From a virus, in the IMG/VR virus record IMGVR_UViG_3300033153_007005, positions 1 to 39,309 of that record: 39,309 nt of DNA; one strand, written 5' to 3'. Below are positions 65 through 9,078 of the stretch, in pieces (within the stretch, counting starts at the first letter, position 1; each line of letters starts with the position of its first letter). Position numbers and translations under genes: made by a program. The notes beneath the pieces were generated by a model. That model saw nothing but the letters and a program-made list of their open reading frames with translations. It searched no databases and was not told where the DNA came from.

Positions 65-967
65 ATGAAAGTTCTAATCACTGGAATTGCTGGGTTTATT
101 GGAAGCCACACCGCAGACAAGTTCTTAAAAGAGGGCTGGGAGGTCTGCGGAATTGACGATTACTCAACGGGCAACCACAGGAACGTCCCTGACGGTGTGG
201 ACTTTTACTGCTATGACATCACCGAATACGACACGATGAACCGCATTGTTCCAGAAATAGCCCCAGATGTGATTGTTCATTTGGCGGCCCAGCCGTCACT
301 TCTGGAAAGTGTTGCCTACCCAGAGTTTGACGCCTTGGTGAATATCATTGGAACGGTAAATCTGGCGAAGATAGCCAGAGACTTAGCCATTTTGCGCTTT
401 GTGTTTTCGTCTACATCGGCGGTTTATTCATCGCCAGACACCAGGGAAGACAGTTTGGAGCTGTTCCCGGACACCCCCTATGGGATTTCAAAGCTGGCCG
501 CAGAGAGGTATTTGCGGGCATTGCTTCCTGATCAGGCTATTGTATTGCGATATGCAAATGTTTACGGCCCACGTCAGGTTGCTCTTGGGGAGAACCAGCT
601 AGTTCCTAGAGCGTTGGATCATATCAGGCGCAGAAAGCCGTTTGTGATTAACGGCGACGGGTTGCAGACCAGGGATTTTATCTATGTTGAAGACGTGGCA
701 AATGCCAACTTCCAGGCGGCCACAGTTGGTCTCCCAGAAGATTTTGCTCTGAATGTATCATTCGGAACTTCAACCAGCGTTCTCGATGTGGTCAATGAGA
801 TAGCAAAACTTACCGCATATACAGGGGAGATCAAACACGGCCCCGCCATAGACGGGGATAGAAGGCAGGTGGTAATGCCTAACGATCTTGCCAAAGAGCT
901 GTTGCATTGGGAGCCGAAATTCTCGTTACACGAAGGGCTAAAGAAAACAGTGAGGGCGTACAAATGA
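65..967 (+). CDS. NAD-dependent epimerase/dehydratase (GalE-like)
   Basis: This 300-residue protein is a complete extended short-chain dehydrogenase/reductase of the nucleotide-sugar epimerase class. The NAD-binding glycine motif GIAGFIGSH lies at residues 7-15. A catalytic serine region follows (FSSTSAVYS), then the YxxxK pair Y139 and K143 in YGISK, and a substrate-binding ANVYGPRQ segment. Length is close to that of UDP-glucose 4-epimerases. It probably makes or interconverts a UDP- or dTDP-sugar for the glycosyltransferases that follow. The ATG is preceded by AGGAGATGAA, and its stop overlaps the next start. The exact substrate cannot be told from sequence alone. Confidence 0.93.
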   Translation: MKVLITGIAGFIGSHTADKFLKEGWEVCGIDDYSTGNHRNVPDGVDFYCYDITEYDTMNRIVPEIAPDVIVHLAAQPSLLESVAYPEFDALVNIIGTVNLAKIARDLAILRFVFSSTSAVYSSPDTREDSLELFPDTPYGISKLAAERYLRALLPDQAIVLRYANVYGPRQVALGENQLVPRALDHIRRRKPFVINGDGLQTRDFIYVEDVANANFQAATVGLPEDFALNVSFGTSTSVLDVVNEIAKLTAYTGEIKHGPAIDGDRRQVVMPNDLAKELLHWEPKFSLHEGLKKTVRAYK

Positions 968-1461
968 ATAAAAAATGTTTTCTGGTTGTAAGCCCGGAGG
1001 GAAGCGGAAACTACATGATAGCTGAAGCCCTGGTAGAAGCCGGATGTGAATATGTCAACGAGGAAGAAAATCTCCGGGAAGTATTATCTAAGTGCCAAAG
1101 CGACAAAGTTGTTATTATCCGTAGCCTTCCGCATCGGGGAAAATTCCCGGACATTATGGCGGTTTGCGATGATATTTGGTGGGCGTCATATGATATTGTT
1201 CTCGTTGTAATGGTTCGAGAACCAAACGCTACAATCAGATCGGTTCAGCGAAGAATGCCGCAAGAAACCAGCAAGGTGAAATACAACATGAAAGTTGCAT
1301 GGCAGCATATTGGGATTCTTGCAAATCATTTTCCAGTTCGTCCGATACCGTATGAGGCATTGGTTCACAGCAAACAATTTAGAGAATGGCTGTTTGGAGA
1401 GTGGGGGTTGAAATGCCCAGGCTACCATTTTAAGGATGAAAACAAAAAATACTATGGCTAA
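964..1461 (+). CDS. sulfotransferase-like P-loop protein
   Basis: The start chosen is the ATG at 964, which overlaps the epimerase stop as ATGA; a longer reading from 907 would lie inside the epimerase gene. The 165-residue product opens with a P-loop-like segment VVSPEGSGNYMIAEAL, placed as the 5'-PAPS-binding loop of sulfotransferases is. It later has VMVREPNATIRS, which resembles the 3'-phosphate-binding R-x-P...S motif. Short, and partly degenerate compared with characterised sulfotransferases. It probably acts with the neighbouring sulfotransferase-like gene on the same glycan. Alternative: a kinase-like P-loop protein of other function. Confidence 0.6.
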   Translation: MNKKCFLVVSPEGSGNYMIAEALVEAGCEYVNEEENLREVLSKCQSDKVVIIRSLPHRGKFPDIMAVCDDIWWASYDIVLVVMVREPNATIRSVQRRMPQETSKVKYNMKVAWQHIGILANHFPVRPIPYEALVHSKQFREWLFGEWGLKCPGYHFKDENKKYYG

Positions 1462-2038
1462 AATAATGGTTTTTACGATGCAAAAAGTTGGATCGTCTTC
1501 TGTGAAAAGAGCGCTGGAAGAAAAAGGCCATGTTGTTGATCGGGCATATGAGGAAAATATTCTTGAACTCGATCCGCTGGCAGCCTATGAAGCGATTTAC
1601 ACGCTGGTTAGAGACCCGGTTGCCCGGAACATTTCATGGATGTTTGAAGTGCACGGTAATAGAATACTCCAGGAAAACATTCGATTAGAACACATCAAAG
1701 ACCTGTTTTTAGAGGAGATCGACCAGACATATCCGCTGACATGGTATGACAGGGTTTTCTTTCCGGCGACAGGGCTGGATGTTTATAAATATGATTTTCC
1801 TGCCAACGGTATTTTGTTATTGGGGAAAGTACTAGTGATGCGAACAGACAAGATGCTGTTTAAGCACAGAGCGGACACTACGCTTACTCGACCTTATGGG
1901 GCGATTTATCATAATTTTCTGGAATGGGTGAGGTTTCCAAAATCCTATTTGGACAAAATGTATATGTCAAAATATACCCAACATTTTTTCCTGCCGTTTG
2001 AAATTGATGAATTTTATCAAAGGAGAATAGACAAGTGA
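1454..2038 (+). CDS. sulfotransferase family / capsular polysaccharide synthesis-like protein
   Basis: Starting at ATG 1454 the protein is 194 residues; an ATG at 1436 in the same frame would add six. Near the N-terminus it has VFTMQKVGSSSVKRAL, a PAPS-binding-loop-like sequence. Further on it has YTLVRDPVARNISWMFE, matching the R-D-P-x-x-R-x-x-S element of sulfotransferase-related putative capsular polysaccharide synthesis proteins. It overlaps the previous gene by 8 bases and ends in an overlap with the fucosyltransferase-like gene, so the five genes look like one translationally coupled operon. Probable role: transfer of sulfate to a sugar. The substrate is inferred only from context. Confidence 0.65.
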   Translation: MAKIMVFTMQKVGSSSVKRALEEKGHVVDRAYEENILELDPLAAYEAIYTLVRDPVARNISWMFEVHGNRILQENIRLEHIKDLFLEEIDQTYPLTWYDRVFFPATGLDVYKYDFPANGILLLGKVLVMRTDKMLFKHRADTTLTRPYGAIYHNFLEWVRFPKSYLDKMYMSKYTQHFFLPFEIDEFYQRRIDK

Positions 2039-2862
2039 GCGAACCCAAAAAGATACACATAACTTCTAGCGGAGACTTTTTTTACGCTTCAATTTCGACA
2101 GATTCAATGGGATACGGTATTAGCCCGAAATATATTGACTGGTCTCTGAACAACATTATGAATGACAATGCCAGAGTTGTGACCGACAGCGACATAAAAA
2201 AATATTTTGGTCCAGGCAAAATCGCCTTGCTTCTTGAACCTTATGAGCTTCACCCAGAGAACTATTGGGAAGTCGCAACCGGAAATTATGATTATGTTCT
2301 TTGTCATCACAAAGAGTGGTGCGAAAGGCTTGGCTGGCTTTATTACCCTTTCGGCGGGACATTTTTAGCCGAAGAAGATTGGAGTGTATATGCCAAGACA
2401 AAAGATGTGTCGATGTTTATTACCAACAAAAACACGATGCCCGGACACAAATTACGATGGCGTGTCTTTAGAGCATTTGGCGGAATTGAATATTTCGGCA
2501 AAGCATTTAGATTTGTCAGGAACAAACTAAAAGGATTAGAGGAATTTGCCTTTCAAATCGTGATCGAAAGCTGTCAAGCCAGAGGATATTTTACCGAGAA
2601 GCTGATTGATTGTTTCTTGACAGGAACCATTCCGATCTATTGGGGAGACCCCGACATCGAGGATCATTTTGACATATACGGGATGATGCTTTGGAGCGGT
2701 GATTTGGCTGAACTGGCGATGATCTTGGAAGAAATCAAGGTGAACAAAGAAGAAATTACGACTAATTGCTCATCGGCCATTGCGGAAAATTTTGCACGAG
2801 CAAAAAAATATGTATGTGCCGAAGATCAGATTTGGGAAAGACATCGGGAGATATTTGAGTGA
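2035..2862 (+). CDS. glycosyltransferase family 10 (fucosyltransferase-like)
   Basis: The 275-residue product carries the hallmark GT10 donor-binding signature near residues 183-204: a GYFTEKLID stretch followed by a Gly-Thr-Ile-Pro-Ile-Tyr-Trp-Gly segment. This is the alpha-1,3/1,4-fucosyltransferase motif, in which the Tyr and Glu-Lys contact GDP-fucose. The N-terminal half (acceptor side) is not recognisable. The GTG start at 2035 overlaps the preceding TGA, and the TGA at 2860-2862 overlaps the next GTG-type start, so translation is coupled. No fucose-synthesis gene is in the window; GDP-fucose would have to come from the host or from genes outside it. Confidence 0.85.
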   Translation: MSEPKKIHITSSGDFFYASISTDSMGYGISPKYIDWSLNNIMNDNARVVTDSDIKKYFGPGKIALLLEPYELHPENYWEVATGNYDYVLCHHKEWCERLGWLYYPFGGTFLAEEDWSVYAKTKDVSMFITNKNTMPGHKLRWRVFRAFGGIEYFGKAFRFVRNKLKGLEEFAFQIVIESCQARGYFTEKLIDCFLTGTIPIYWGDPDIEDHFDIYGMMLWSGDLAELAMILEEIKVNKEEITTNCSSAIAENFARAKKYVCAEDQIWERHREIFE

Positions 2863-5021
2863 AATTATATATCAGCCCCAATTACGGCAGCCGTCCTGAT
2901 AAAGCGGATGGTGGAATACGCCGTGTCGTTGAAGCGCAGAAAAGGCATCTCCCAAAATTCGGGATTGAAATAGTCGATTATCCAGATCAGGCCGACCTTA
3001 TCAATAATCACGGTGCGTCTTTGGTATCTGTGCCGGGGATACCCAGCGTGAATAGCTGTCACGGATTTATGTGGTCTAAATACGACTGGGGTTCTTGGGC
3101 GCACGAGATCAATCGGGCGGTGGTCAGGTCTATGCAGCACGCCGTTGCTCACACAGCACCTTCAAAGTGGGTTGCAAAAGCCATGACGAGGGGAATGCTG
3201 GTCAATCCAGTTATAATTTATCATGGGGTTGATGCCGAGGATTGGAATCCGTTTTTGCATAAAGAGGACTATGTTCTTTGGAATAAAGCCAGGGTAGATA
3301 AGGTTTCAGATCCAGAAGACATGAATCAGGTTGCGAAAATGCTGCCGGGCGTGAAATTTCTTTCTACTGTTGGGGAGAAAGACAAAAACGTCCGCATTTC
3401 AGGAGTTATGCCTTATCCAGAAATGAAGGGATTGATAGAAACCGCTGGTGTTTATTTGGCTACCGCAAGAGAAACATTCGGGATCGGAACGCTTGAAGCA
3501 ATGGCCGCCGGAGTTCCCGTAGTGGGTTGGGATTGGGGTGGACAATCGGAAATTATCATTCACGAAGAAACCGGGTATTTGGCCGAACCCGGCGACTTTA
3601 AAGACCTTGCCCGTGGTATTGAATATTGCCTTGCCAATAAAGAAGAAATGGGGTTGAATGCCAGGGCAGACATTGAAAAGCGGTGGGGCTGGGAAGATAA
3701 GATTGAAAAATACGCAGAGGTTTTCCGGGAGGTATATGATGAATACAAACAAGATCGTCCGAAAGTTAGTATTATTCTTACCACATATAACCTTAACCGT
3801 TATCTCCCTGACGCTCTCTCATCGGTTCAGAAACAAACCGAGGAAAGCTGGGAGTGCGTTGTTGTTGATGATTGCGGCACAGATAATGCTTTTGACATTT
3901 TTCAATTGTTCGGAAAAGAGGATAGTCGCTTCAAATATTTTCGCCCCGACAAGAACCTGGGATTGTCACTCGCAAGAAACTTCGGGGTATCCAAGTCTAA
4001 AGGTCAGTATCTCATAATGCTGGATGCCGATGATATGCTGGAAAAAAATGCCTTAAAAATTTTGTCCGGCGAGTTGGATAAAGATTGGGGCATAGACATA
4101 GCCTATGGGCACCTGGACACCTTTACAGACAACGATCCGACCCCAAAGCGGAACGACTGGCCACTGGAAAAGTTTGATTGGCGACAGCAAATGGCTCACT
4201 TGAATCAATTGCCCTACTCTGCCATGATGCGGAGAGAGGTCTTTGAGCGGTCTGGTGGTTATCGGAAGCGGCATTGGAGGGCAGAGGACGCAGCTTTCTG
4301 GTGCAGGGTTTCATCGTTTGGATTTGTTATAAAGAAAGTCACCCAGGCTTCTACTCTTTTATACAGAATGCGTGGCGACAGCAAATCAAATCACGAACCA
4401 GGCGACGGCGATTGGACAGCCTGGTATCCCTGGAGGCTGGCCGGAAACCCACGAGAGGGAATGAAGAGGATCAAGGACGGTTATAAAATCCCCGAATATT
4501 TGGTTCCCTGGGGCGCGCCACACGAAAGAACAGTTGGTAGATTTTGGGATATTCCCGATTATGCCAGCCCGTTTGTGTCCGTAATTATTCCGGTTGGGCC
4601 AGGACACGAAGACGTTGTAATAGACGCTTTGGAAAGTTTGGTTGCGCAGAACTACCTGAATTGGGAAGCGATTGTTGTCAATGATACAGGAAAGCATTTT
4701 GAATTAAAACACGCTCCGTATGCAAGGTTTGTAGACACGCATCATATTGAGGGCATGGGCCCGGCTTATGCTAGGAATCTTGGTGCCGAACATGCCAGAG
4801 GCGAAGTCTTGTTGTGGCTGGACGCCGATGATTATTTGATGCCAGATGCGCTTCAGAAAATGGTCGATGTTTATAAAAAAGAAGGGCCGTGCGTTGTTTA
4901 TACTGACTGGCTGAAAAACGAGGGCGACACGTCAAAGCCAATGAGTTATTTTGAAACCGAGGAGTTTGTTTGCGGATCTGTGCTGAATAAACTTCGGCAC
5001 AGTGTAACCTGCCTGGTTTGA
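2859..5021 (+). CDS. multidomain glycosyltransferase GT4-GT2-GT2, frame broken near its end
   Basis: The 720-residue frame holds three transferase domains. Residues 1-300 are GT4 (GT-B fold), with YHGVD near 120 and TFGIGTLEAMAAGVP near 206-220, the E-x7-E-type donor site. Residues about 302-560 are a first GT2 (GT-A fold), opening PKVSIILTTYN and carrying LMLDADDM as the DxD site. From about 569 there is a second GT2, opening PFVSVIIPV and carrying LWLDADDY. The second GT2 stops early at TGA 5019-5021, after HSVTCLV. Its missing end, DEDISGWEDWDYYIAL, is encoded immediately downstream in the +1 frame. The protein probably builds an oligosaccharide stepwise. Confidence 0.88.
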   Translation: MKLYISPNYGSRPDKADGGIRRVVEAQKRHLPKFGIEIVDYPDQADLINNHGASLVSVPGIPSVNSCHGFMWSKYDWGSWAHEINRAVVRSMQHAVAHTAPSKWVAKAMTRGMLVNPVIIYHGVDAEDWNPFLHKEDYVLWNKARVDKVSDPEDMNQVAKMLPGVKFLSTVGEKDKNVRISGVMPYPEMKGLIETAGVYLATARETFGIGTLEAMAAGVPVVGWDWGGQSEIIIHEETGYLAEPGDFKDLARGIEYCLANKEEMGLNARADIEKRWGWEDKIEKYAEVFREVYDEYKQDRPKVSIILTTYNLNRYLPDALSSVQKQTEESWECVVVDDCGTDNAFDIFQLFGKEDSRFKYFRPDKNLGLSLARNFGVSKSKGQYLIMLDADDMLEKNALKILSGELDKDWGIDIAYGHLDTFTDNDPTPKRNDWPLEKFDWRQQMAHLNQLPYSAMMRREVFERSGGYRKRHWRAEDAAFWCRVSSFGFVIKKVTQASTLLYRMRGDSKSNHEPGDGDWTAWYPWRLAGNPREGMKRIKDGYKIPEYLVPWGAPHERTVGRFWDIPDYASPFVSVIIPVGPGHEDVVIDALESLVAQNYLNWEAIVVNDTGKHFELKHAPYARFVDTHHIEGMGPAYARNLGAEHARGEVLLWLDADDYLMPDALQKMVDVYKKEGPCVVYTDWLKNEGDTSKPMSYFETEEFVCGSVLNKLRHSVTCLV

Positions 5022-5223
5022 CGAAGACATATCTGGCTGGGAAGACTGGGATTACTACATTGCCCTTCAAGATCATGGGCTGTGTAGTGTTCGGGTTCCA
5101 GAAGCGTTGTTTGTTTACCGCTTTTACGGCGGAGATCGCAGAGAAGAATCTTTCGATATGCGAAAAGATTTGTTACAATATGTTAGAAATAAGTGGAGTG
5201 AATATTATCAGGAGGAGGAAGAA
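5020..5223 (+). other. out-of-frame continuation of the second GT2 domain
   Basis: In the +1 frame relative to the glycosyltransferase, the sequence reads on from GAC at 5020 as DEDISGWEDWDYYIAL, then RVPEALFVYRFYGG. This is the usual C-terminal part of a GT2 domain (the ED/W motif and a final helix). No stop interrupts this frame before 5796, so it runs straight into the frame of the next gene, whose own ATG is at 5224. This is seen directly. Whether it is made by +1 frameshifting at GTT TGA C, is a decayed end, or reflects a one-base assembly error cannot be decided here. Confidence 0.7.
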
Positions 5224-5796
5224 ATGCCTTGTGGCGGATGCAAAGGAAGCAAAACAAGAAAAGATCGGAACGTAAAGGCGGTTGATCAGACGATTGCCCC
5301 GAATACTTCAAAGGTTATCAACGGTTATGAAATGGTCATTATGGAATACATTGGCAAGCCACATGGCCCTTTTAGGGTAAACGGGTTGGGGCCGACCAAT
5401 GCTAGGTACAAATTCGGAAAAACGCAATCGGCGAAATTCAGCTATGTTTATCCCCACGATGTTCAGCATCTTTTGGCAAAGCGAAATCAAGATGGCTCTC
5501 CGTGGTTCAAGGTTGTTGAGCCGGAGCCGATTGAGGAAAAGGTAAAACCAGAGGACTTTGTTGGGCAGGAAATTGAGCCACCGCCTCTGCCAAAGCCAGA
5601 GCCTGAACCCCAGGAAGTGTTTGTTTTTGATGTTCAAATGAAAGATTTAACAGTCAAAGAGCTGGACGACATTTTATTGGATAAAAAATATCACAGGCTG
5701 GAAATTCTGGGCGCTTTGGTTGAGCAAGAAATTAATGGGAAGAATAGAAAGACAGCCCTGAAAAAACTGAGGGATGCAATAGGTGAATTATCTTGA
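5224..5796 (+). CDS. Cys-motif phage structural-region protein with Pro-rich linker
   Basis: The start at ATG 5224 is set by a strong AGGAGGAGG ribosome-binding site at 5210-5219. The 190-residue product begins MPCGGCKGSK, a CxxC motif typical of small phage proteins beside head-tail joining genes. It continues with a GYEMVIMEYIGKPHGPFRV domain and a GxTxxRYKFGK-like strand region. A Pro/Glu-rich linker follows (EPPPLPKPEPEP), then a C-terminal helical domain with MKDLTVKELDDILL that resembles small Rho-N/HeH-like modules. Probably a virion or head-completion protein, judged by position. The same frame is open upstream into the glycosyltransferase tail. Confidence 0.6.
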   Translation: MPCGGCKGSKTRKDRNVKAVDQTIAPNTSKVINGYEMVIMEYIGKPHGPFRVNGLGPTNARYKFGKTQSAKFSYVYPHDVQHLLAKRNQDGSPWFKVVEPEPIEEKVKPEDFVGQEIEPPPLPKPEPEPQEVFVFDVQMKDLTVKELDDILLDKKYHRLEILGALVEQEINGKNRKTALKKLRDAIGELS

Positions 5797-6067
5797 TATA
5801 CTAATACTGGGATTGGCAACCTGGCGAATATCACACATGGTTGTATGGGAAGATGGCCCGTTTGACATTTTTCAAAAAATTGTCACCTTTACGGAAAAGT
5901 GGCGATTTACGAAAAGTTTGTTTTCGTGCGTCTGGTGCCTGTCGGTGTGGATAGGTGCAATTCTGGCTTTATCTGCTATAATAGATAAGACGGTAACCGT
6001 ATATCTAATGTTACCTTTCGCTTTAAGTGCTGTCGCAATTTTATTGGAGCAAATAACAGATGGCTAG
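5783..6067 (+). CDS. DUF1360-type membrane protein
   Basis: This 94-residue product starts at GTG 5783 inside the end of the previous gene. It has an N-terminal hydrophobic segment (LDILILGLATWRISHM), a WEDGPFDIFQKI motif, the conserved CVWCLSVWIGAILAL segment and a last hydrophobic helix. This pattern matches the DUF1360 family, small integral membrane proteins frequently found in phage genomes and of unknown function. The CxWC motif could bind a metal or form a disulfide. The stop overlaps the next start. Confidence 0.8.
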   Translation: MNYLDILILGLATWRISHMVVWEDGPFDIFQKIVTFTEKWRFTKSLFSCVWCLSVWIGAILALSAIIDKTVTVYLMLPFALSAVAILLEQITDG

Positions 6068-7271
6068 AGCAGAAACAAAAACCTGGTTGTCGCTTGATAG
6101 ATGGGCGGAAATAGTTGGCATAAATCCCCTTCACTTTAATCAACTGGCCTCGACAGAATTTCCCGATTTGTGTGGTCAGCCGTGGTATCAATATGATTGG
6201 CAAGACGCAGATCGTGTTGGGCGGGAAGCAATTGCAATCGCAATACGCTCGGCGGAACGGCGAATAGCAAAATATGTTGGATATAACTTGCTTCCAGATT
6301 GGCACAACGAGATCGTTCCGGTTCCACGTCCGGCATCCCCAGAACTTTTCGGAAAGGCTGTAAACCCGCGATATGCGCGGAAATCTGTCAAAGCCACGAA
6401 AGGTTATCTTATTTCTGGTGGCGTGAAGGCAAGCTCGTTGATTGAAGCCGGACTTGCTATTGTCAGATCAGATGCTGATGGTGACGGGTATAATGAGCTT
6501 TGCACCGTAACGGTGACAACTGATGTAGATGACTGTGAAATTCATCTTTATTATCCGGGCGAAAATGGGGCAGATATTTGGGAAATCAGACCCATTACGA
6601 TTTCCAGTTCTGGTGGAATTGCTACAATTACATTCAAGTCCTGGCAGGTTGTAGATCCAGACAAGACGCAAGGTCTTGACCCCAGCCCATTGACGGCTGA
6701 AACAGACAGCAACTATATCACCACTGTCGATGCCTACCGGGTATATAACGATCCGCAAACCCAGGCAACTTTTATGTGGGAAGACTTACCGGACGCCTGC
6801 GATTGTGGAAGCGAAACTTGTGAGACCTGCGCATGGTCTACACAAACAGGATGTTTACAGGTCAGGAATGACCGTCTGGGATATTTCACATTCAATCCTG
6901 CCACCTGGGATACTGACAATGAAAAGTTTACTCAATCAGAATTTTCTGTCGCCAGGGAGCCAGACAAGATCAGGCTTTATTATTATTCTGGTTGGCGAGA
7001 TCAAGACATAATCTGTCCGGCAGTAAACATGGACAGAGAACTTGAAAGAGCGATAGCGCATTTCGCTGCCACATTGCTTGACAGAGATATGTGTGCCTGT
7101 AATAATGTTCAGTATTACTTAGATTATTGGCGTGAGGATCTGGCGAGGGTAGGGGCAGACGTAACCTATCAAAACTCACCACATATACTTAGCAACCCGT
7201 TTGGGACTATGCGTGGAGCGGTTTACGCCTATAATGTTTGCAATGATAACCAGAGGAAAATAGGGCAATGA
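6060..7271 (+). CDS. putative head-tail connector protein
   Basis: The 403-residue product starts at ATG 6060, overlapping the previous stop. Near residues 55-75 it has AIAIAIRSAERRIAKYVGYNL, resembling the helical core of gp6-like head-tail adaptors. A second helical part near the end (MDRELERAIAHFAATLLDRDM) would pack against it. Between them are beta-rich insertions and a Cys cluster (CDCGSETCETCAWS, then CACNN) that may hold a metal ion or disulfides. Location just before the tail genes fits an adaptor at the portal-tail interface. Identification rests on weak motif likeness and gene order. Confidence 0.5.
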   Translation: MARAETKTWLSLDRWAEIVGINPLHFNQLASTEFPDLCGQPWYQYDWQDADRVGREAIAIAIRSAERRIAKYVGYNLLPDWHNEIVPVPRPASPELFGKAVNPRYARKSVKATKGYLISGGVKASSLIEAGLAIVRSDADGDGYNELCTVTVTTDVDDCEIHLYYPGENGADIWEIRPITISSSGGIATITFKSWQVVDPDKTQGLDPSPLTAETDSNYITTVDAYRVYNDPQTQATFMWEDLPDACDCGSETCETCAWSTQTGCLQVRNDRLGYFTFNPATWDTDNEKFTQSEFSVAREPDKIRLYYYSGWRDQDIICPAVNMDRELERAIAHFAATLLDRDMCACNNVQYYLDYWREDLARVGADVTYQNSPHILSNPFGTMRGAVYAYNVCNDNQRKIGQ

Positions 7272-7584: not shown

Positions 7585-9078
7585 ATGAGTACACCTAAAA
7601 TAACCCAAGCTGGTCAAACGAGAGTTTGGCTTTTGGAGAACGGCCCCGGCCCCGCCAGGGAGCCAAGGTATCAGGGAACTATGGCTGTAGGAGACGCAAG
7701 TTGGCCCGCAGGAGACATCACGCCTGTCAAGATCCCTGATCCAGATCACTTCAACAAGTTTCTTACTGCCGGTCACATTCGCGGCGCTGAAGAAAATCTT
7801 ACGATGCCAATTACTGCTAGGTATCCACAACAGGCTTCAACGTTGCTGGATCTCCGCAGGAAAATGTGTCGCGTAGACTTTCATGTGCCTTTAGGAAAAT
7901 GCACAAATCCCCAAATCTATTCCCGCTGGGAAAAGATGATGATTTACAGAGATGGTCGCATCACGAGCTGGGCCAATGAAAACGCTGGTGCATTGGACGA
8001 TGATGCCCAAGGCGTTATCAATGAAACCGGCGAATTTAGTTTCGAAGAGATGTATGAAGTCGTTCCGATGACACTTCAGGAGATTGCCGAGGCAAACGCT
8101 GTTCGGGAAATCGTGGATGTTAGTATATGTGACAGCCAGACCTGCGGCGATTGCGAAGATGAAAGCGACGGTTCAAGCAAAGTGTTTGTAACCATGATCG
8201 GAGAGGGCGCAACGCCGGGAACCCCACCTTCGGTGATCTATTCTGCTGACGGCGGATCGACTTGGGCGGCAACTGACATCGACACCGCTTTTTCGAACGA
8301 GAATCCGACCGACGGCGAATGTGTTCGGGAGTATTATGTTGTCACCGTTAATGGTAGTAATTCTGTCCATTATGCTAACAAAGAAGACATTTTGAGCGGC
8401 GCAGAAACCTGGTACGAGGTTACCACTGGATTTGTGGCCGGGAATGGGCCTAATGCTATTTTTGCTCAAAGCGGAATGGATGTTTGGGTTGTTGGCGACA
8501 ACGGTTATATCTATCACGCAACTGATATAACTTCTGAAGTAACGGTTTCCGATGCGGGTTTGGCAACGACACAGAATCTTCTGGATGTTCACGCCGTTGA
8601 TAGCGAAAACATTCTGGCGGTTGGTGAACTTAACGCTGTTGTTCTATCACAGAACGGCGGAGACACCTGGCAGGTGCTTACAGGCCCGGCGGTCGGCGAA
8701 TCTTTGAAGGCTTGCTGGATGCGTGACGAAGACACCTTCTTTGTTGGAACGAATACTGGCAAGTTGTATTACTCCAACGATGCCGGGGATAGCTGGACAG
8801 AAAAATCACTTCCGGGAAGCATTGACAATATCGACAGTATCAAGTTTTATGACGATACCGTTGGTTACATTGCTGGCAGGAGTGGTGGGTCTGGTTATAT
8901 CCTTCGCACAACTGACGGTGGATATAGTTGGTATGTTATGCCACAAAATGCCGTGGCAATTCCTGCCAATGATTATGTGAACGACATAGCGGTAAGTGGG
9001 TTCAACCCCAACTTCTTGATCGGCGGCGGTTTAGCAGATGATGGGTCGGCGGGATTCGTTGTACTTGCTGAAGGATAA
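7585..9078 (+). CDS. tail tube protein with C-terminal Asp-box (BNR) propeller-like domain
   Basis: A clear AAGGAGG site precedes ATG 7585. Residues 1-about 185 have the make-up of a phage tail tube protein. After a Cys-rich hinge (CDSQTCGDCED), the remaining ~300 residues carry repeated Asp boxes of the S-x-D-G-G-x-T-W type: SADGGSTW, SQNGGDTW, SNDAGDSW and TTDGGYSW. These are spaced as in sialidase/Ycf48-like beta-propellers. Such a domain would decorate the outside of each tail tube ring and could bind sugars or cell surfaces. At 497 residues it is far longer than a plain tube protein. No sialidase arginine triad is evident, so catalysis is not claimed. Confidence 0.75.
   Translation: MSTPKITQAGQTRVWLLENGPGPAREPRYQGTMAVGDASWPAGDITPVKIPDPDHFNKFLTAGHIRGAEENLTMPITARYPQQASTLLDLRRKMCRVDFHVPLGKCTNPQIYSRWEKMMIYRDGRITSWANENAGALDDDAQGVINETGEFSFEEMYEVVPMTLQEIAEANAVREIVDVSICDSQTCGDCEDESDGSSKVFVTMIGEGATPGTPPSVIYSADGGSTWAATDIDTAFSNENPTDGECVREYYVVTVNGSNSVHYANKEDILSGAETWYEVTTGFVAGNGPNAIFAQSGMDVWVVGDNGYIYHATDITSEVTVSDAGLATTQNLLDVHAVDSENILAVGELNAVVLSQNGGDTWQVLTGPAVGESLKACWMRDEDTFFVGTNTGKLYYSNDAGDSWTEKSLPGSIDNIDSIKFYDDTVGYIAGRSGGSGYILRTTDGGYSWYVMPQNAVAIPANDYVNDIAVSGFNPNFLIGGGLADDGSAGFVVLAEG

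Follow-up and report, generated by a model that had tools for sequence, protein, structure and literature searches.

The left end of an uncultured tailed phage contig, IMG/VR record IMGVR_UViG_3300033153_007005, analysed here in its entirety (39,309 bases, the window), carries a cassette of five overlapping genes for sugar modification. One of these encodes a protein likely homologous to sulfotransferases, and the cassette genes recur together, at a conserved position beside virion genes, in uncultured relatives. On balance, we favour the reading that the cassette is a late-expressed phage glycan-assembly operon whose product is a sulfated glycan borne by the capsid or tail tube protein, with the sulfation and the acceptor as its least certain steps. 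A broader claim is advanced more tentatively, and could well prove wrong: that tailed phages add sulfate to their own particles, with NKWYS-type sulfotransferases as recurrent head-region enzymes in at least three unrelated lineages, here accompanied by an epimerase, a GT10 enzyme and a multidomain glycosyltransferase (GT) for a sulfated glycan on capsid or tail.

The five genes lie on the + strand at 65-967, 964-1461, 1436-2038, 2035-2862 and 2859-5021, with successive overlaps of 4, 26, 4 and 4 nucleotides. To their right follow, in order, a small gene whose product starts M-x-C, a DUF1360 gene, the gene for a 403-amino-acid protein (6060-7271), a gene for a tube-like, BNR propeller-bearing protein, and the genes for the tape measure, Dit and a Gp37-like tail protein. 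The original prediction, made from this DNA alone, of five overlapping sugar-modification genes ahead of head-tail joining genes was borne out by the open reading frames (ORFs), and the same five-gene order occurs in a related record, L034, far beyond chance. A search for end repeats found none in the contig, which is therefore probably incomplete; as it starts at the cassette, the left neighbour of the latter is not visible in the window, and the left side is supplied by relatives. The annotated window genes include none recognised as terminase, portal or capsid. The claim that the cassette sits inside the virion gene region consequently holds for its right side in the window itself and for its left side through a putative major capsid gene in relatives, while "head-tail joining" describes the adjacent genes by synteny, the tape measure and Dit genes being the reference, and not by any hidden Markov model (HMM) annotation.

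Relatives were found by scanning with the large GT encoded at 2859-5021 and then with alignments of this GT and of the 6060-7271 protein. Alignments were required, as single-sequence scans of viral contigs with the 1436-2038 protein (P3) and with the 6060-7271 protein returned nothing; tblastn of the 964-1461 protein (P2), P3 and the 6060-7271 protein against isolate phages also returned nothing, for P2 and P3 even at an E-value of 1. In about 14 distinct uncultured records, within the reach of each contig, a large GT gene stands just before the M-x-C gene, the DUF1360 gene, a homolog of 6060-7271 and the tube gene, and in 8 records a gene for the putative major capsid protein (473-484 amino acids) lies upstream. 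The order in L004 is terminase (HMM-confirmed), portal (weak HMM match), protease-like protein and putative capsid. Between the putative capsid gene and the core GT gene there is nothing in L042, one SDR gene in L004, an SDR and a GT2 gene in L008, a methyltransferase gene in L009, and in L012 genes for an SDR, methyltransferases, a GT2 and a kinase-like protein. L034 shows the identical five-gene order, with similar overlaps and leading into the same neck and tube genes, at identities to the window of 36% (epimerase), 38% (P2 type), 39% (P3 type), 36% (GT10) and 49% (core GT). All five genes are likewise present in L033, with insertions of a GHMP kinase and two more GTs, and in L024 methyltransferase genes and then P2-type and P3-type genes lie downstream of the putative capsid gene before the contig ends. 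Judged from these sequences, the locus is a constant core GT with a variable set of sugar genes. As the cassette genes (36-49% identity) and the tube and connector genes (38-46%) are similarly diverged, they have probably been inherited together for a long time and are not a recent pick-up. This survey of neighbouring phages, which had been suggested as a check on whether the cassette is carried away from virion genes elsewhere, found its slot conserved beside them across the lineage. Matches in genome bins (Methanothrix, Ignavibacteriae, a proteobacterium and Gemmatimonadetes, the last two nearly identical) gave no host, since these look like mis-binned viral contigs.

The case for a sulfotransferase is carried by P3 (1436-2038, + strand), an NKWYS-type protein with a canonical site for 3'-phosphoadenosine-5'-phosphosulfate (PAPS). 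Its only family match is to PF10364 (NKWYS; score 28.4 bits, cut-off 25.1). When ten viral sequences of this type were considered, that of the window included, NKWYS was matched by all ten, Sulfotransfer_2 by three (best E 1.9e-5), Sulfotransfer_1 by two and Sulfotransfer_3 by one, and one homolog (in L025) passed the Pfam cut-off for Sulfotransfer_2. A family profile searched against the PDB gave heparan sulfate 3-O-sulfotransferases as all of its top five matches (E 0.006-0.010), with the alignment falling on the VRDP...S motif; an earlier three-sequence alignment used for the same search had given nothing. The 5' phosphosulfate loop M-x-K-V-G-S keeps its lysine (K17) in nine of ten homologs, with arginine in the other, and in the 3' phosphate site, R-x7-S, R59 is present in all ten and S67 in nine. 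We take K17, R59 and S67 to be the expected PAPS ligands. The NKWYS match, the Sulfotransfer_2 homolog, the heparan sulfate 3-O-sulfotransferase profile matches and the conserved residues agree with the predicted sulfotransferase type, and P3 is likely homologous to sulfotransferases. The refuting case named with the original prediction, that the two P-loop proteins lack a PAPS-binding fold, did not arise, P3 being convincingly of sulfotransferase type by sequence.

NKWYS genes were also seen beside head genes outside this lineage. In an unrelated lineage (L026, L027, L028 and L030), an NKWYS gene with no GT gene adjacent stands immediately downstream of the gene for the major head protein, which in L030 is recognised by PHROGs (E 1.2e-25). 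In a third lineage (L049-L051), NKWYS genes directly precede terminase- and portal-like genes, read as such from sequence and not by HMM, and stand beside GTs and a nucleotidyltransferase. A bacterial homolog of P3, on Thalassovita plasmid pAge77, belongs to a capsule cluster with gmd, GDP-fucose synthase and GT10 genes. The occurrence of NKWYS genes near phage head genes and in a bacterial glycan cluster favours a role in the making of sulfated glycans. Separately, three NKWYS paralogs per contig were observed in L025 (8001-12803) and L048 (7823-14107).

Of the sugar enzymes, that encoded at 65-967 (+ strand) is an SDR-type, nucleotide-sugar 4-epimerase-like protein predicted to serve activated-sugar supply (PF01370, E 7.2e-54), with UDP-glucose 4-epimerase as its best PDB match (4zrm, E 2.3e-52) and homologs at 36-37% identity in the L034 and L033 cassettes. 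The product of 2035-2862 (+ strand) matches the GT10, or alpha-1,3-fucosyltransferase, family barely over the cut-off (PF00852, E 2e-5; 24.7 against 23.9), matches Helicobacter pylori FucT in the PDB (E 1.7e-9) across the conserved motif, and has the GT10 C-terminal motif (Y-x-TEK...P-x-Y-W-G) in alignments with both. Its homologs occur in L033 and L034, and in cyanophages at about 30-36% identity. A GT10 fucosyltransferase had been predicted; the family assignment (PF00852, FucT) stands, whereas fucose as its sugar is not established, as no GDP-fucose synthesis genes (gmd/fcl) were seen in the incomplete contig and the L033 cassette encodes a heptose-7-phosphate-kinase-like (HddA-like) protein. 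The donor sugars of the cassette enzymes are putative.

From these genes we infer, and do not observe, the acceptor, the sugar identities, the sulfation and the biological purpose. In the proposed mechanism, the epimerase would supply the activated sugar, the GT4-GT2-GT2 enzyme would start the chain on a virion protein, either the major capsid or the tail tube protein, by adding its first sugars, and the GT10 enzyme would attach a branch or terminal sugar; P3, perhaps with P2, would move sulfate from host PAPS to the glycan. The changeable gene set that separates capsid and core GT would alter the outer sugars phage by phage, in a serotype-like manner.

Several observations weigh against this mechanism. 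It is the position of the genes, and not a modified virion protein, that points to the virion as the site of the glycan, and the 473-484-amino-acid protein is taken for the major capsid protein from its gene order and size, its alignment having given no PDB match and a comparison with a known capsid protein having failed. A Foldseek search with the confident model of P3 (predicted local distance difference test score, pLDDT, 88) gave no significant match (best E 0.08), with SULT1C3 in eighth place and poorly superposed, and P3 lacks 17-19 amino acids, in frame near nucleotides 1856-1865, that are kept in the L033 and L034 homologs. No basic residue, lysine or arginine, stands in the P-loop of P2 across four homologs, and the third domain of the core GT is broken in the window. 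Finally, L043 lacks a GT directly upstream and has other genes in the slot, and the sugar genes of L013 lie on the opposite strand between the DUF1360 gene and the 6060-7271 homolog, exceptions by which some variants look moron-like. Within this opposite-strand block of L013 (279-2309, - strand), a DegT-type aminotransferase gene with an intein-like insert was observed.

The main rival, rather unlikely in our estimate, is that the enzymes modify the host surface, altering capsule or cell-wall glycans for receptor masking or superinfection exclusion, with the operon a mere passenger of the late region. Phage GTs commonly modify the host surface, the PHROGs matches of the core GT include GtrB-like proteins, bacterial homologs of P3 are found in capsule and exopolysaccharide clusters, and the variable gene content is like that of a capsule locus. 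Late expression by capsid and neck genes, however, is ill suited to early host modification, the position of the core GT is fixed across the lineage, and the annotated genes include no O-antigen flippase or polymerase.

The conserved core of the cassette, the GT4-GT2-GT2 glycosyltransferase (2859-5021, + strand; one GT4 and two GT2 domains by Pfam), has homologs of 870-1074 amino acids in relatives at 43-53% identity. Its third domain ends before the WEDWD motif, and the remainder of that domain (FDEDISGWEDWDYY...), located by tblastn of relatives at 5017-5223 (+ strand), is out of frame with 2859-5016; the switch from frame 3 to frame 1 at about 5015-5017 was consistent against all 11 relatives used. 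The junction near 5016 is a net 32 nucleotides shorter than in relatives and reads GTT TGA C, which we take to be reminiscent of an RF2 site. A programmed frameshift was nonetheless thought unlikely, as it would not restore about 10 conserved residues and the site lacks a Shine-Dalgarno-like stimulator. The triple glycosyltransferase that had been predicted is correct in its GT4 and two GT2 domains, with the third interrupted near 5016 and its WEDWD end in another frame, and the glycan in this phage may be shortened by the broken domain. The break and the stretch missing from P3 reflect, on the sequence, either a decaying copy or assembly collapse. That the cassette is a non-functional remnant of a module working in relatives seems improbable: the break is the sole one found across the comparable virion region, is consistent against the 11 relatives and is joined by the missing stretch in P3 elsewhere in the cassette, but the other four frames are open and tightly overlapping, the first two GT domains are intact, and assembly collapse could look alike. 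In L009 and in L017 (IMGVR_UViG_3300011400_000098), the core GT gene was observed to be split over the two contig ends, suggesting that the genome in this lineage is circularly permuted and, at about 58 kb, complete.

P2 (964-1461, + strand) is a 165-amino-acid P-loop protein which, by fold model and motif, appears sulfotransferase-like but atypical. It has no Pfam or NCBIfam match and nothing in PHROGs under E 0.08. Its AlphaFold model (pLDDT 85) shows a P-loop fold, for which Foldseek listed PAPS sulfotransferases among the top matches (SULT2A8, 2.0e-4; TPST2, 2.6e-4; SULT1E1, 3.8e-4; Stf0, 9.8e-4), mixed with nucleotide kinases, of which adenylate kinase was the best match of all (3.8e-5); the fold search (top E 4e-5 to 1e-3) does not tell PAPS enzymes from kinases. 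The R-x7-S site is kept, R85 and S93 being invariant in four homologs, as is the EGSG of the loop EGSG(T/N). A profile comparison of P2 with P3 homologs aligned a short stretch around the VREP/VRDP motif only, at 2.5% probability. A scan of plasmids with P2 gave a chance match only, and its PDB profile matches were rejected as unrelated proteins. P2 may be an atypical sulfotransferase-like protein or a partner subunit. Structure prediction and HMM searches for a PAPS site in 964-2038, the check proposed with the original prediction, thus found motifs and HMM matches in P3 and R-x7-S in P2, although the P3 fold search was not significant and P2 has no loop lysine; P2 as a PAPS sulfotransferase is favoured by the R-x7-S site, and its fold class is one shared with nucleotide kinases. 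About as improbable as decay is the reading that P2 and P3 are not sulfotransferases and transfer phosphate, in kinase-like fashion, or another group. Adenylate kinase as the best fold match of P2, the non-significant fold search of P3 and the absence of a Pfam sulfotransferase match for either window protein would fit such an activity. Kinases need the Walker A lysine, however, which P2 lacks along with the sulfotransferase P-loop lysine; R-x7-S is invariant in P2 homologs and R59/S67 nearly so in those of P3, and P3 homologs match Sulfotransfer_1, _2 and _3.

Hypermodification of DNA, with the GTs decorating modified bases of the phage genome, is very unlikely, for although two DNA methyltransferases are encoded in the window, no base hydroxymethylase or pyrimidine-hypermodification gene is among the annotated genes, the operon sits with late structural and not replication genes, and we know of no DNA role for sulfotransferases. 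Virus GTs do hypermodify DNA in other phages, according to an excerpt of PMC12619734 citing Pyle et al. 2024.

Virion glycosylation is known in few phages. Mycobacteriophages Che8 and Rita have their own GTs and are reported to carry glycans, with a shielding role, on capsid and tail-tube proteins (Freeman et al. 2023, as cited in excerpts of PMC11256854 and PMC12619734). The glycan-assembly operon proposed here resembles these, being that of a tailed phage with its own GTs. In the same excerpted accounts, the GT genes of the related phage Maravista lie near the 3' genome end, whereas those of the window lineage lie between capsid and connector, and no sulfotransferase is mentioned, whereas the window has sulfotransferase-like genes and putative acceptor proteins. 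Chlorovirus PBCV-1 A111/114R also joins three GT domains in one polypeptide, one proposed to be a fucosyltransferase, and acts on the major capsid protein glycan (PMC7826918); unlike in this algal virus of an unrelated host, the order in the window is GT4-GT2-GT2, the fucosyltransferase-type enzyme is on a separate gene, and sulfotransferase-like genes stand alongside. Capsule or exopolysaccharide clusters of Thalassovita pAge77 and Vibrio campbellii similarly place an NKWYS protein beside GTs, that of Thalassovita also with GT10 and sugar-nucleotide enzymes, but these clusters have export machinery (and in Thalassovita GDP-fucose genes), none of which is in the window cassette. Phage-borne sulfotransferase-family genes are known from the marine OM43 phages and Synechococcus phage S-SRM01, where they are of Sulfotransfer_3 type, as opposed to NKWYS here, and their role in phage genomes has been called unclear (PMC10580990). 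The points of difference from known virion glycosylation are the proposed sulfation and a slot fixed between capsid and neck genes. Such a slot, which combines a conserved core GT with exchangeable enzymes for sugars and sulfate, offers a concrete, testable role for phage sulfotransferases, and a sulfated coat, if true, would alter the charge of the virion, how it attaches, and how antibodies or host surfaces recognise it.

To the right of the cassette, the predicted M-x-C gene (5224-5796, + strand) has a Shine-Dalgarno-like AGGAGGAGGAAGAA directly ahead of its ATG, and its start methionine is invariant among 11 aligned sequences; family searches with its product gave nothing above cut-off. 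In 10-plus relatives this gene is in frame with the GT end, with no stop between, and in L018 it is a separate ORF; a fusion of the GT to the M-x-C product, which is possibly a virion protein, might be an additional product. The DUF1360 gene (5783-6067, + strand; PF07098, E 7e-9) encodes a small membrane-type protein and is found at the same place in 11 relatives. The 6060-7271 product (+ strand), the marker of the lineage, is a probable head-tail connector or neck protein by synteny, its gene in relatives having the capsid/GT genes on one side and the tube gene on the other; it had no HMM or PDB match, nor did the connector alignment have a PDB match. The 7585-9078 product (+ strand) is a probable tail tube protein, from its position ahead of the tape measure, and a possible glycan acceptor. 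Its C-terminal BNR/YCF48 beta-propeller (PF14870, E 7e-10) is conserved in the lineage.

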